Assembly (NCBI GenBank): GCA_013154085.1
Contig: JAADDE010000001.1
Coordinates: 1-64,000, forward strand
Origin: Thermoproteota archaeon
GTDB taxonomy: Archaea > Thermoproteota > Thermoprotei_A > Sulfolobales > Ignicoccaceae
DNA: 64,000 nt
Direction: 5' to 3'
Shown: one piece after another, positions 28,347-49,150 of the stretch
Layout of the letters: every line of letters starts with the position of its first letter
Numbering within the stretch: position 1 is the stretch's first letter
Translations under genes and position numbers: made by a program
The notes under the pieces: model-generated
The model's input: the letters and a program-made list of their open reading frames with translations, nothing else
Database searches by the model: none
What the model was told of the DNA's origin: nothing

Positions 28347-29129
28347 CTAATAGATGTTTTTTATCAAGTACTCGGGCACGTCTTCTATCCTAAGCTTCTT
28401 CACCTCCCCGGAGCAGAGCGGACACCCTTCATTTCTCACGTCACTTGCCAAGAACGCTCTGTACGGCTCCTCGAGGTTCAGCGAGATCTCGCTGGGCCAG
28501 CTCCTCCCGGAAAGGGCGTGGAGCACGGCTTGTGATGCCAGCGCGGCCACCGCCTCGGCCAAGTTGGGGTTCGTGTAGTACCTGACCTTCTCCTCCCATA
28601 CCTTGCCGCATATCGGGCAGTATCCCTCTTTCAGATACTTCACGTAGCCTCTCGTGACGCCCAGACCCGCATCAATGTACTTTTTATCGAACTTAACTGA
28701 AAGGAGCAAGGCCGTCGCTCTCGGAGGGAGGGTGTCGAAGGCCGTAACTACAGCGTCGCTCTTCTCCACGAGCCTCGCAAACTCCTTCAAGCTACTAAGG
28801 GAGACCAGACCAGAAGGGGTGAACACTTCCATGTACACCCCTTCTAAGTGCGTCCACGGGTGGTACTTGTTCAGCCTCTCTGCCAGAGCCTCTACCTTCG
28901 GCCTTCCTACCTCCTCGCTGTGGTAGCACTGGTATCCGACGTTCTCTGGCCCTACGTAGTCGAAGTCCACCAGCACGATCTTTTTAAAATTAAAGCGGGC
29001 GAGGTCCCGGGCTATGCGCGAGCCCAGAGTGCCTATTCCGCCTATGAGGACCGTCTTGTCGGATACGTCTATTCCTACGTCCTTCAAGTAGTTTGACGTC
29101 CTCTCGGGGAACCCTTTAGGGGGCTCCAT
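28347..29129 (-). CDS. E1-like/ThiF-MoeB-HesA family adenylating protein
   Basis: LIGGIGTLGSRIARDL, IVLVDFDYVGPENVGYQCYHSEEVGRPKVEAL, AVVTAFDTLPPR, paired CPIC...CPLC zinc cysteines. Confidence 0.88.
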   Translation of the reverse strand: MEPPKGFPERTSNYLKDVGIDVSDKTVLIGGIGTLGSRIARDLARFNFKKIVLVDFDYVGPENVGYQCYHSEEVGRPKVEALAERLNKYHPWTHLEGVYMEVFTPSGLVSLSSLKEFARLVEKSDAVVTAFDTLPPRATALLLSVKFDKKYIDAGLGVTRGYVKYLKEGYCPICGKVWEEKVRYYTNPNLAEAVAALASQAVLHALSGRSWPSEISLNLEEPYRAFLASDVRNEGCPLCSGEVKKLRIEDVPEYLIKNIY

Positions 29130-29914
29130 GTCACACCCCTTACTACAACGCGGTCCTTAGATAATTTGGATACTTTGACTTCGTAAGCCACCGCCTTTGA
29201 AGGAGTTATCTTTAAATACGGAAATTCTGTAATGTCGAAGTTAATTCTATAGGAAGCTATGAAAATCAAATCTTCTAAGACAATATCAGCCACGTTGCCG
29301 TAGCGGTAGGGCACGCACGTCTTGTCCGGCTCGCTGCAGAACCCTGTCAGAGAGTACTCGTCCGCATCCCTGTCATACTCCGTTTTGGCAAAACCCTTTT
29401 TCTTGGCTATATTGTCGATATCCTTTATTTTCAATTTTTTCGCGTTATACATTATGGATATATCCGGAACCGGCTCATATATGCCTATGTCGAGGCAGAA
29501 AGAGCGTCCCACCACCACCGGCGAGATTATGCCGAAGACGCGCGGTTTTCCCGGTATGGTGGCATACAGCTGGGCCCTCAGCGCAATTTTCATCGTATCC
29601 ACATCGATGCTTGATGGCTCCGGAGGTATGCCGCAGTGGTAGTGCGCCACAATGAGATCGTCCGGCTGGAGGTCGTACGTCCTCACGTAGGTTGGGCCCT
29701 TATCGAGGGCCCTCATGTATCTGGCCCTTTCTACTTTTATTACTATGTCGTCCATAGTTCCGCTGAGCGCAACTACGTCTTCTGAGGCGTCCTTGCTCAG
29801 CATGTAGCATTTGTTCCTCACACCTATATCGAGTAACAGAGTGAATATCTCTGGGTTTATCATGGCCCTATGCACTGCCACCGTCGCAGAGTCCAACGTC
29901 CGTGCATAGCGCAA
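29084..29914 (-). CDS. JAB/JAMM-like (putative deubiquitinase/desampylase-type) protein
   Basis: HYHCGIPPEPSSIDVD fits H-x-H-x6-P-S-x2-D with canonical spacing. Alternative ATG at 29863 would remove the overlap with the upstream gene. Confidence 0.7.
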   Translation of the reverse strand: MRYARTLDSATVAVHRAMINPEIFTLLLDIGVRNKCYMLSKDASEDVVALSGTMDDIVIKVERARYMRALDKGPTYVRTYDLQPDDLIVAHYHCGIPPEPSSIDVDTMKIALRAQLYATIPGKPRVFGIISPVVVGRSFCLDIGIYEPVPDISIMYNAKKLKIKDIDNIAKKKGFAKTEYDRDADEYSLTGFCSEPDKTCVPYRYGNVADIVLEDLIFIASYRINFDITEFPYLKITPSKAVAYEVKVSKLSKDRVVVRGVTWSPLKGSPRGRQTT

Positions 29915-30596
29915 CGTCGAGCACCTCGAGTGGGTTCTTTTCCGTTGACCTTATGTAGTCCCAAGACTCAATGTGCATTATGCAGGCGTTTAGCTCAACC
30001 ATACGCCCGGCCTCCTCTAGGGCCGGGCTCAACTCGGGGAATTCTTTTGCTTTAAGTAAGAAAAAATCGCCTTTCAAGTTGTGAAAACAGCACTTGTGGT
30101 ACACTTTGGGCGATATAAATATCAGCGGCTCTGTCTTGGGGTAGCCCAAGCTCGGGAACACGAAGACCTTGTAGGTTCTTTTGGGACTGCAGTAGCCCCT
30201 CTTCGCACACGCCTTCTCCGTCCAGATGCCCAGCCCCGGGTCGTTCGCCAGCGGCCGGTACTTCTTCTGGAGCTCTGGGGAAGAGAAGTAGTGCTCTCGG
30301 AACGCTTCTATCGCGCTCTCCAGCGAGCCGTAGGGCTCCTCTATCGTCGCGTACCACGTATTGCCGTGGACTGCCACCAGGCTTCCGACGCTCTCGGACG
30401 AGTGCGTTATCTCGTACTCGACGCCGTCCGGCTTCTTTACGAATATTCTGATCCTTCTGGGGCTTATGCCCAGCTTCTCGGCCAGCTTTCCGCGGATGTC
30501 GTCCGGGGTCTCTCCGTAGTTCGCGAATATGTGGTATTCCGAAAGCTCCGGCTTCAGCATTACGACCAAGTGAATCTTTTCGGGCTCGCTCGACAA
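29868..30596 (-). CDS. Ubiquitin-like N-terminal domain plus E2/UBC-like domain protein (inferred)
   Basis: N-terminal IHLVVMLKP...GETPDDIRGKLAEKLGISPRRIRIFVKKPDG...SLVAVHG resembles a beta-grasp Ubl. GYPKTEPLIFISPKVYHKCCFHNLKGDFFLL resembles UBC YPxxPPxVxFxTxxYHPN...GxICL. Confidence 0.5.
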   Translation of the reverse strand: MSSEPEKIHLVVMLKPELSEYHIFANYGETPDDIRGKLAEKLGISPRRIRIFVKKPDGVEYEITHSSESVGSLVAVHGNTWYATIEEPYGSLESAIEAFREHYFSSPELQKKYRPLANDPGLGIWTEKACAKRGYCSPKRTYKVFVFPSLGYPKTEPLIFISPKVYHKCCFHNLKGDFFLLKAKEFPELSPALEEAGRMVELNACIMHIESWDYIRSTEKNPLEVLDVALCTDVGLCDGGSA

Positions 30597-30599
30597 GGC

Positions 30600-31043
30600 C
30601 TACCTTCTCCTCCTCATCTCCACTTCTGCTTCTATGGGTTCTATAACGGACTTCAAGCTCACCGCCAGATCCACGACGGGCTTTACTTCGTCCTCAGGGA
30701 GGCCGTATTTCTCGAGGAACTCCTCGCCGTCGGGCGTCAAACGGAGCTTGTTCTTGGCCGGGTTCCGCTCTAGGAGGCCCACGTAGAGCAAGTCCATTAT
30801 ATCTTGGTGGAGATCCTTGCTACCGACGACCTTGCCTATCTTCACGAACTGGTAGCCTAGGTCTACTCCCTTCTCCTTCATTTCGTACAGGAGGCGCGTG
30901 AGTCCCTTTTCAGAAATCTCGCCGAACTGCTTCACTATGTGCAGTATCATCTTCATGCTTCTACTTTTCTTGACGTCGTCAACCGTGATGACGTGTCTTG
31001 TTACGATCTTCAGCTCTTTCGTTTTCCCCCCGGACGCCGACAT
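30600..31043 (-). CDS. Winged-helix-like hypothetical protein
   Basis: Helix-rich segment with LLYVGLLERNPAKNKLRLTPDGEEFLEKYGL. 3 nt before the Ubl/E2-like gene. The track ORF starts at 31061. Confidence 0.55.
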   Translation of the reverse strand: MSASGGKTKELKIVTRHVITVDDVKKSRSMKMILHIVKQFGEISEKGLTRLLYEMKEKGVDLGYQFVKIGKVVGSKDLHQDIMDLLYVGLLERNPAKNKLRLTPDGEEFLEKYGLPEDEVKPVVDLAVSLKSVIEPIEAEVEMRRRR

Positions 31044-31788
31044 GTTCTCCCCCCTCGTCATCCTCCTCGGAGGATATTTTTGTAGTGGTCAACCTCTCCC
31101 AGAGCTCTGCCAGTGCCTCCTCGAGGGTCCTTCCGCTCAGCAGAAGCTGATAGAGCTCGAAGCGAAACAGCTCCTCGCCTTCCCTCGTTCCGTAGAACTC
31201 CAAGAACAGCCTCCTAACCTCTTCATAATCCACTCTTCTCGGCAACCTCTTCACCTCCAAGCTTACTCTGATAGGAGCTTCTGCCCCCGCAATAACAGAC
31301 GCCACGAGGTATGCTCCGCCCATCAAAGGATTTGCGAAGAATGTGCCTATGCCCCCTACGAAGAGCACCATCAGCGCCAGCGTGGGAGAAAGAGAGTACA
31401 GCAACAAGCTGGCCCAAGGAATGTAATTCATCAATGTTATTGGAGTTACAAGCAGACTGAATGCGGAGAGCGAAACGAGGGTAGCCACGAGCTTTCCGTT
31501 CCAGCGCACCTCTTGTTCAATGAGCTTTTCGACGGCTTCGCCTATCTTTTCTAAGTACGCCTTTTTCATGGCACTATCCTCCGTTTCTTCCAGCCTATCC
31601 AAGAGCTTCTCGACCTCGCTCCAGACCTCTCCCGAACGGAGCGTGCACGCTACGGGCTTGAGAGTGCTTGATATTTTTACTAGCAACTCCATGAGAATTG
31701 TATTATCTGGCGCGACCTCCCTCTTTGCCGCTTCCTTGAGAAGTTTCCGGAACTTGTCGTAAAAGCTCCTCTTAGGCTGGCACATCAC
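30979..31788 (-). CDS. Membrane protein with cytoplasmic helical regions
   Basis: Two or three hydrophobic segments (LVATLVSLSAFSLLVTPITLM; ASLLLYSLSPTLALMVLFVGGIGTFF). 3' end overlaps the next gene. Confidence 0.55.
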   Translation of the reverse strand: MMCQPKRSFYDKFRKLLKEAAKREVAPDNTILMELLVKISSTLKPVACTLRSGEVWSEVEKLLDRLEETEDSAMKKAYLEKIGEAVEKLIEQEVRWNGKLVATLVSLSAFSLLVTPITLMNYIPWASLLLYSLSPTLALMVLFVGGIGTFFANPLMGGAYLVASVIAGAEAPIRVSLEVKRLPRRVDYEEVRRLFLEFYGTREGEELFRFELYQLLLSGRTLEEALAELWERLTTTKISSEEDDEGGEHVGVRGENERAEDRNKTRHHG

Positions 31789-31815
31789 AGCACCGGTACC
31801 TAAGGGCCCCGCGCT

Positions 31816-33081
31816 CTAAGAGTCTAAGAATTTAGAGAGGAGCTCCCGATCGGTCATCAGGCGGGCAGCCTTTACTTTCCTCATGAGGCCCTTTTCATAT
31901 CCTCTGTAGAACGGACAGATGTAGCAGCCGAGCCTGTAGAAGCCCGACGGGTAGAGGGGGTTGGGGTACACTCCCTTGTGGAGCAAGTAGAGCTGAACCA
32001 TCATAGCGCTCCACAACTTTAATGGTGCCTTGAGGGTGCCGACGCCCTCCCAAGAACGCTCCTCCCAGCGGGAGGAGCGCGCGCTGGATTCCGCGTCCCT
32101 GTCCCCAACCACCACGAAGTCGGGCCTTGCCTCCCTTATTGCCTCCTCAAGCGCCTTGAGTTTGAGGCCCGTGCACCACCTCTCCTCTCTGCGCGGGAGC
32201 CCCCTAGACGCTATCTCTTCCTTAACCGGGGCCCTCTTGTACACCAGCTCAACTCCTAGGCGGCTTGCTAGGTCTTCCACGTACAGCTTGTTCAAGTGCA
32301 TGTCAACGCCGGTGTCTACGTAAACTGCAACTACTTCGTCGCAAGCCTCCTTTGCGATCAGCAGCGCAGCAGTGCTGTCCTTGCCGCCGCTCCAAGGGAC
32401 GACCGCCCTCTCGCAGGGCTTCAAGAACTTCACTGCGATTCTTTCCCATTCTTTTAAGAACGGCTCGCTCTTAACGAGGGAATCCTTAAGCCGGAATCCT
32501 ACCACATCGCCCAGAACGGTAGGCGTGGGCTCCGAAAGGTCTCCCAGCTCCATCATGGCCACTACCCTTCCTCCCGAATATATCTCGTGAAATCCCTTTG
32601 CCCTCTTGAACACCAGAAAGGCGTCGCTGGAGGCCTTCCCCAGCCCAAGCGTCTCCCACCAAAGTCCCCACGCCAAGAAGGGCTCTTCGGAGGGCCCCAC
32701 CTTGGCCGGAAAGACCTTCTTCAAGTACGGAACGTTCCCCTCCCAGGCCACCCAGCCGCGCGGCTGGGCCTTTGCCATCTCCAGCTCCCACCTCAAGTGG
32801 GAGAGGCGCGCGTTCCGGACCCGCGCCCTCGGAACTACGTGGACCACGACGTTGGGCGGGGTCGTCGAGCTCAGCTCGCCGGCGATCTCAGAATCCTCCC
32901 TGCCCAGCATGACAATGTTCATAGCGTTTGGATCGTAGACTTCTTTTATTTTGTCAAGTATATCAGCCTTGCGGGCTCCCTTCAGCGTGAGAACCTCCGC
33001 CCTCCACCAGGGGAGGGCTTGGGAGAGCATCGCCTTTACGGCGTCGGCGTCTTTCTTGCTACGCACGATTATTTTCAGCAT
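31816..33081 (-). CDS. PAPS-reductase-family PP-loop protein
   Basis: VVPWSGGKDSTAALLIA PP-loop, EERWCTGLKLKAL, GCYICPFYRGYEKG. Confidence 0.82.
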   Translation of the reverse strand: MLKIIVRSKKDADAVKAMLSQALPWWRAEVLTLKGARKADILDKIKEVYDPNAMNIVMLGREDSEIAGELSSTTPPNVVVHVVPRARVRNARLSHLRWELEMAKAQPRGWVAWEGNVPYLKKVFPAKVGPSEEPFLAWGLWWETLGLGKASSDAFLVFKRAKGFHEIYSGGRVVAMMELGDLSEPTPTVLGDVVGFRLKDSLVKSEPFLKEWERIAVKFLKPCERAVVPWSGGKDSTAALLIAKEACDEVVAVYVDTGVDMHLNKLYVEDLASRLGVELVYKRAPVKEEIASRGLPRREERWCTGLKLKALEEAIREARPDFVVVGDRDAESSARSSRWEERSWEGVGTLKAPLKLWSAMMVQLYLLHKGVYPNPLYPSGFYRLGCYICPFYRGYEKGLMRKVKAARLMTDRELLSKFLDS

Positions 33082-33182
33082 AAAGGTCTTCCGGCAGTGA
33101 CTGAGCACAACGGGTTTAATTAGCTAGGGGCCGGGGCAGAACGATATTTAGCTCTACCTTAGAGCAGAGGGCGGGCACTGCC

Positions 33183-48377: not shown

Positions 48378-48642
48378 GATGGGCACGTGTGAGGTGTGCG
48401 GCTCCAAGCTCTCGGTCACCAGATGCTACGTCTGCGGAAGGTTGGTTTGCAGGGACTGTAGCGAGGAGGTCCAGCCCGGCATCAGAGTTTGTGCGATCTG
48501 CATTAAGTCCGGCTGGAAGGAAAAACTGATGGAGGCAAGGCTCGCGGCGGCCTCCGAGTACTCGAGGTGGTACCGTGAGGCGCTCCGTCTTGGTGGTCGG
48601 TTGCGGGGGGCTGGGAAGCTGGACGAGCTTGATAATGGCTAA
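48280..48642 (+). CDS. Treble-clef/B-box- or RING-like zinc-finger protein
   Basis: CYFCGERASSRCSVCGRPVCRSHGDPCPAC...CEVCGSKLSVTRCYVCGRLVCRDC...CAIC. Confidence 0.75.
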   Translation: MRCYFCGERASSRCSVCGRPVCRSHGDPCPACKMGTCEVCGSKLSVTRCYVCGRLVCRDCSEEVQPGIRVCAICIKSGWKEKLMEARLAAASEYSRWYREALRLGGRLRGAGKLDELDNG

Positions 48643-49150
48643 GTCCGGCTGGAAGGACTTCATATTGGTCGATCCCGACTACGTCGAACCGAAGAACATT
48701 TCCAACCAGATATACTTTCCGGAGGACGTCGGGAAGCCGAAAGTAGAAGCCTTGAAGAGGAAGCTCCAAGATCTGGGAGCGAAGGTAGAGACATACCAGT
48801 CCCGGATCGAGGAAGTCTTGGACCGCCTCCCAGAGGTTCCATTAGCCTTGGCTCTGACCGACAACATACCGAGCAGGCTGGTCGTGGAGGAGAAGTACAA
48901 GACTCTCCACGCCATGGTTAGGCCCGGGTTTGGGATAGTAACCATGACCACAGAGAACTTCAAGCTCTCCCAAGTAATGAGAGAAGGAAGGCACGAGGGG
49001 CCCCAAGAGCCCCCTATGGTAGTCATGGTTGCCAGCGTCGCGGCTAGGGAGGCTCTAAGCTACTTGAAGGAAGGAAAGTCCAAAGTCGAAGGCAAGCTTC
49101 TTATGATATCTCCTTACCGCTTCGAGGTGCTGGAGGTCGGGACGGCGTGA
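48575..49150 (+). CDS. Short E1-like/ThiF-fold adenylating protein
   Basis: VLVVGCGGLGSWTSLIMAKSGWKDFILVDPDYVEPKNISNQIYFPEDVGKPKVEALKRKL; ALTDNIPSR. Confidence 0.85.
   Translation: MRRSVLVVGCGGLGSWTSLIMAKSGWKDFILVDPDYVEPKNISNQIYFPEDVGKPKVEALKRKLQDLGAKVETYQSRIEEVLDRLPEVPLALALTDNIPSRLVVEEKYKTLHAMVRPGFGIVTMTTENFKLSQVMREGRHEGPQEPPMVVMVASVAAREALSYLKEGKSKVEGKLLMISPYRFEVLEVGTA

Follow-up and report, generated by a model that had tools for sequence, protein, structure and literature searches.

A conserved Ubl-JAMM-E1 gene unit with a probable E2-like partner in Ignicoccus

Gene sets combining ubiquitin-like (Ubl) proteins with E1, E2, and JAMM (JAB) components have been described in both bacteria and archaea. 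The bacterial type 6e operons encode Ubl repeats, with an optional C-terminal E2/RWD-like domain that is cysteine-free and inactive, together with a JAB-E1 (Iyer, Burroughs, Aravind 2006, PMC1779556), and the archaeal Caldiarchaeum-type operon encodes ubiquitin, E1, E2, RING, and an Rpn11-like JAMM protein, the last of which matures pro-ubiquitin and cleaves an N-terminal ubiquitin fusion (PMC5654768). Here, we describe three adjacent genes, C, D, and E, in a 64,000-nt stretch of DNA (the window; contig JAADDE010000001.1 of assembly GCA_013154085.1) from a Thermoproteota archaeon of the Ignicoccaceae, which form a real, conserved Ubl-JAMM-E1 unit that has gone unannotated and probably includes an E2-like partner. 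The genome is 1.18 Mb and 81.7% complete, and its family is represented in our sample by one genus. An earlier reading of the sequence alone (the original prediction) had proposed a five-gene ubiquitin-like conjugation cassette, A to E, with a dedicated membrane protein and perhaps a defense role. Its five overlapping or closely spaced minus-strand open reading frames (ORFs) were confirmed at or very near the positions it gave, but the specific unit is C-D-E, not a five-gene system. We found this gene set mentioned nowhere in the literature that we searched.

Conservation and products of C-D-E

All five Ignicoccus genomes found (G000 to G004) carry the three genes side by side in an unchanged order, with protein identities of 50 to 73%. 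From outside Ignicoccus, 398 Thermoproteota genomes were searched with profiles of C and D, and nothing credible was returned; the weak matches seen there (E 0.003 to 0.009) are partial, several lie in frames with stops, and we discounted them as chance. C and D overlap by 47 nt, and D and E by 46 nt. We conclude that all three are protein-coding, because the ratios of nonsynonymous to synonymous substitution (window versus G002) are 0.15, 0.24, and 0.13 for C, D, and E, respectively, reflecting purifying selection, and because the start sites of D (TTG/GTG/TTG/TTG/ATG) and E (ATG/TTG/TTG/TTG/GTG) are kept in the five genomes even though the codon changes. Within the C/D overlap, a 27-nt block, CTATGCACGGACGTTGGACTCTGCGAC, is identical in 5/5 Ignicoccus genomes, and invariant residues use the same codon in 9 of 10 cases inside the block versus 11 of 93 in the rest of C (Fisher p 6e-7). 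This identity is the expected mark of two frames both under selection, and a nucleotide-level signal may be a further source of it.

Gene E is, from its sequence, clearly an E1/ThiF-family adenylating enzyme (Pfam PF00899, E 2.6e-24), and its best PDB profile matches are ATG7 (E 9e-13), then NAE, SAE, Cap2, and MoeB. The adenylation residues (G30-G31-x-G33-T34-x-G36-S37-R38, D55, N63, Q67, K78, D132, and R137) are invariant, as are all four zinc cysteines, C171/C174 and C236/C239, which lie in CPIC and CPLC motifs; the NxxRQ motif has tyrosine in place of its arginine. E has no E1 thioester cysteine, in that the crossover region between the zinc pairs is Cys-free and the sole other cysteine is C68. 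Elsewhere in the window there is a second, short ThiF-like protein (Table 1), which lacks the zinc cysteines and is conserved in G001.

The catalytic motif makes D a strong candidate for a JAMM metalloprotease. The JAMM motif picked out in the original prediction, HYHCGIPPEPSSID, is present, and the complete set, E45-x4-[LF]-x-G plus H91-x-H93-x7-S101-x2-D104, is invariant in the five orthologues. HxHx7SxxD alone arose in 19 of 200,000 shuffles of D, and together with the upstream E-x4-hydrophobic-x-G in 1 of 400,000. Among 1,152 ORFs, HxHx7SxxD occurs in D, in JAMM genes at other archaeal loci, and in one ORF (L026/L055) that is probably spurious; with the Glu motif added, JAMM-type genes alone remain. 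The Glu-to-His spacing is 46 residues in D versus 59 to 67 in other JAMM genes. Aligned by hhalign with the JAMM proteins of other cassettes, D has its motif in register (E 0.021; 4 of 300 shuffles were as good). A match of D to eIF3f was out of register and was not used.

For the N-terminal half of C, there is strong support for a ubiquitin-like (beta-grasp) fold from modeling, structural comparison, and profile searches. An AlphaFold2 model built from three sequences has a predicted local distance difference test score (pLDDT) of 68 to 92 per ten-residue block over residues 1 to 90, with the order beta-beta-alpha-beta-beta-alpha-beta. Foldseek matches it best to UFM1 (E 5.4e-5; template-modeling score [TM] by target, 0.76), with ubiquitin variants at up to TM 0.82 by target. 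A profile of residues 1 to 90 matches almost only ubiquitin entries in the PDB (43 matches, E up to 1), with single-copy ubiquitins at E 0.035 to 1 and tandem ubiquitins much lower because their repeats add up; Pfam ubiquitin is the family matched by most C members, although weakly (E 0.16). The motif IEEPYGS follows the last Ubl strand in every C orthologue, with an insertion directly after it in L011. As judged from its sequence, this tail is suggestive of release of the Ubl by the JAMM protein at a single glycine, and we hypothesize that a cut after Gly90 would leave a Ubl tail as long as that of ubiquitin. In UFM1, a single-glycine tail is likewise exposed before Ser. A hidden Markov model match of C to an 81-residue ORF in L011, which looks like an RNA polymerase subunit, was set aside as chance.

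Within the second half of C (residues ~92 to 242), hhalign lines up GYPKTEPLIFISPKVYH in register with the E2 core YP..PP...YH (E 0.013; column shuffles were as good in 5 of 300 cases). The low-confidence model, with a helix, three strands, and then helices, is compatible with an E2 without being proof of one. Each of the seven cysteines in C is invariant among orthologues, and three of them, C169, C170, and C205, are near the expected E2 site. Cys205 is suggestive as a candidate E2-like active cysteine; it lies 38 residues past the histidine (H167) rather than the usual ~10, and the C205-x6-W212 spacing resembles that in a divergent archaeal E2 at locus L053 (VCWAAYSNW). C130-x5-C136 and C231-x5-C237 resemble a zinc pair. 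Local matches of C to JAMM proteins in L054 and L057 were dismissed as chance. Overall, these features are suggestive of a UBC/E2-like domain. Thus, the E1, JAMM, and Ubl assignments of the original prediction were borne out; the UBC-like YP..P...H pattern that it noted is present, with the E2 identity drawn from it still suggestive, and structure prediction recovered the beta-grasp and modeled most of the second half of C with low confidence.

Table 1. Coordinates of the C-D-E genes, their parts, and other features of the window
Feature	Position	Strand	Size or residues	Description
Gene C	29868-30596	(-)	242 aa, TTG start	N-terminal Ubl and candidate C-terminal UBC/E2-like domain
Gene D	29084-29914	(-)	276 aa, TTG start	JAMM/MPN+ metalloprotease-like
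Gene E	28347-29129	(-)	260 aa, ATG start	E1/ThiF-family adenylating enzyme
Ubl domain of C	~30336-30578	(-)	residues ~7-87	Predicted from AlphaFold2 fold, Foldseek, and profile matches
Ubl tail of C	30324-30341	(-)	E86-E87-P88-Y89-G90-S91	Candidate processing site between G and S, after last Ubl strand
C/D overlap	29868-29914	(-)		Two reading frames; holds the 27-nt block
Gene B	30600-31043	(-)	147 aa	Winged-helix-like; immediately precedes C in Ignicoccus
Gene A	30979-31788	(-)	269 aa	Hydrophobic stretches ~99-120 and ~125-157 (hydropathy)
Gene F	31816-33108	(-)	430 aa	PAPS-reductase-domain protein, PRK08576 family; upstream neighbor of A
F-A pair	30979-33108	(-)		Remains paired in Ignicoccus
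Second ThiF-like gene	48575-49150	(+)	191 aa	Short ThiF-like protein

Neighboring genes

Gene B, which is separated from C by 3 nt and has a further ATG 18 nt upstream of the start in Table 1, was matched in 38/38 genomes of the same order and in 0/212 others of a 250-genome sample, with one match per genome; it has no Pfam family. In the relatives whose neighborhoods were fetched, B lies beside ordinary metabolic genes, such as pyrimidine and CTP synthase genes, and no E1, E2, or JAMM gene is present in the stretches around it. Because B is found throughout the order without Ubl-gene neighbors elsewhere, it reads as a housekeeping winged-helix-like gene upstream of C-D-E, and is probably outside the dedicated system.

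Gene A overlaps B by 65 nt and is nearly confined to Ignicoccus, where it adjoins F (NCBIfam NF006351, E 1e-139; Pfam PF01507, E 5.6e-26). F and A remain paired even where relocated; in G001, the pair is ~9 kb from B-C-D-E and on the other strand. Since the pair stands apart there, membrane protein A is not tied to C-D-E. We therefore rejected both A and B as members of the system, and the predicted cassette loses its boundary and its dedicated membrane protein.

A proposed pathway and its rivals

With the Ubl fold, the JAMM catalytic set, the E1 adenylation domain, and the tight conserved linkage supported by sequence and modeling, we regard it as probable that C-D-E is a divergent, Ignicoccus-specific pathway for Ubl activation, conjugation, and removal. 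C would be a Ubl-E2 precursor with the Ubl as its N-terminal half, D would take the Ubl off the precursor and/or targets, and E would adenylate the Ubl tail as a homodimeric E1 of the ATG7/UBA5/MoeB type. As E has no thioester cysteine, we propose that the adenylate would go straight to a target or to a cysteine in the E2-like domain, for which Cys205 is the candidate. An E2 fold and activity, cleavage after Gly90, the transfer step, and the targets are what we infer in this scheme. The more detailed version, in which the modifier is made in cis as a Ubl-E2 precursor, a linked JAMM protein cuts it at a single glycine (IEEPYG-S, as in UFM1), and the E1 adenylate charges an E2 with a displaced cysteine, in all members of Ignicoccus, an archaeon whose endomembrane system is complex, is doubtful, and we advance it only tentatively.

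Several observations weigh against such a pathway. The Ubl has no C-terminal di-glycine, ending in IEEPYG-S and running on into the E2-like half, and no free Ubl paralogue was found when sought in the genomes. No 12-residue window of C is better conserved than residues 81 to 92 (11/12 invariant), but shuffles equal this conservation in 8.6% of cases, which is not significant alone. The E2-like half has no confident model over residues 112 to 242 (pLDDT below 50 from ~112), it has H167-K-C-C in place of an HPN motif, and residue 177, ten after the histidine and the usual place of the E2 cysteine, is not Cys. The profile match of C to E2 proteins reaches P of about 0.01 to 0.02 and no better, and there is no E2 match above cut-off in Pfam, NCBIfam, or PADLOC. 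D has a poor AlphaFold2 model (mean pLDDT 39.8, three-sequence input) and no Pfam JAB (including Prok-JAB), NCBIfam, or PADLOC match above cut-off.

A plausible but rather unlikely explanation is that C-D-E is a sulfur-carrier or cofactor pathway, in which E activates the Ubl as a thiocarboxylate carrier, D trims it, and the second half of C is an accessory. JAMM proteins trim carriers in some bacterial sulfur-carrier pathways (Mec+/CysO and QbsD/QbsE), and the features of E, with a MoeB-like zinc site kept and the thioester cysteine missing, would suit such a role. The PAPS-reductase-domain gene F is a neighbor in three genomes and probably in a fourth, where a contig breaks off, but in G001 neither F nor A is linked to C-D-E, the unit itself contains no rhodanese or sulfur-transfer gene, and the Ubl lacks the di-glycine end. 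Phylogeny bears on both sides. The first E1 tree grouped E with cassette E1s (98/99), and in free trees the solo E1s form their own clade with E outside (98/99), but the Ignicoccus branch is very long and a constrained tree placing E with the solo sulfur-type E1s is not rejected (approximately unbiased test, p-AU 0.57); because of this, we leave the E1 ancestry of E open.

Less likely again is a catalytically dead E2-like half of C that serves as a UBC/RWD-type scaffold, with the Ubl either conjugated by E alone, as in sampylation, or working unconjugated. The same domain order, Ubl-E2-like, JAB, E1, is seen in type 6e, with a cysteine-free E2-like domain (PMC1779556), and the canonical E2 active-site motif is missing from C. 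The invariance of all seven cysteines, including the three near the expected E2 site, speaks against a dead domain, although by their sequence the two C-x5-C pairs may serve for zinc binding alone. An antivirus defense cassette of the CBASS (cyclic oligonucleotide-based antiphage signaling system) or Bil kind, as the original prediction had entertained, is very improbable, as there is no sign of that role beyond a match of E, confined to its ThiF domain, to PADLOC E1-E2 models (E 4e-14), PADLOC matched neither C nor D, a plasmid search with C and a phage search with D gave nothing, neither the CD-NTase (nucleotidyltransferase) nor the effector of type II CBASS was recognized among relevant PADLOC matches of A to D or by eye in the flanking ORFs, and the unit is in all five Ignicoccus genomes found and therefore looks inherited.

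Ubl conjugation and deconjugation is thus the best reading of how C-D-E works, with C a candidate for the E2 family and the unit a candidate for type 6e. If true, it would add a minimal, highly diverged Ubl pathway to Ignicoccus, which has been studied for its endomembranes and as the host of Nanoarchaeum (PMC5468417). It would also test an E2-type relay using an E1 without a catalytic cysteine and a single-glycine Ubl, and the three proteins, small and of hyperthermophile origin, should lend themselves to easy purification and assay.

Comparison with known and other archaeal systems

Comparable Ubl/E1/E2/JAMM gene sets are present in other Thermoproteota. Canonical E2 genes are above the Pfam cut-off in 49/300 Thermoproteota genomes, usually near E1 and JAMM genes at the loci read, which corrects the background given in the original prediction, that most Crenarchaea are known for Urm1/SAMP-type systems without E2. 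One such set, in the same order as Ignicoccus (G019:C5, L044:8730-10948), is a compact trio of a Ubl-E1 fusion, an E2 with HPN and Cys, and a JAMM protein with HTHP. At L053:7158-10826 (G173), a GG-Ubl, E1, E2, and JAMM are in a row with probable membrane-protein genes on both sides, and L052:9582-12277 (G310) has overlapping JAMM, E1, and divergent E2 genes, the last without HPN. None of these has the architecture of the Ignicoccus set.

Archaeal SAMP/Urm1 systems share with C-D-E a noncanonical E1, a JAMM protein, and a Ubl without a classical E2; C-D-E differs in being a dedicated three-gene unit whose Ubl is fused to a second domain and lacks GG. The UFM1 pathway (UBA5 and UFC1) has the closest Ubl fold by Foldseek and also a noncanonical E1, but there is no demonstrated sequence relationship and the protease class differs. 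Bil (BilABCD) and type II CBASS Cap2/Cap3 likewise combine E1, E2, and JAB parts, whereas C-D-E has no free Ubl, CD-NTase, or matching E2 motif, and its distribution is not mobile. The Caldiarchaeum operon similarly brings archaeal Ubl, E1, E2-like, and JAMM genes together, and its precursor-maturing JAMM protein is a model for D. Unlike it, C-D-E has neither a separate di-glycine ubiquitin nor a canonical E2, no RING was seen, the E1 has no catalytic cysteine, and the JAMM motif is HYHC, not HSHP.

Type 6e is the nearest described architecture. C-D-E is archaeal, has a single Ubl, encodes JAB and E1 in separate overlapping genes, and keeps cysteines in its E2-like part, and has no Pfam match to the type 6e families. 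In type 6e, a Ubl is joined N-terminally to an E2-like domain and followed by JAB and then E1, and C-D-E shares this architecture if the E2-like call holds.

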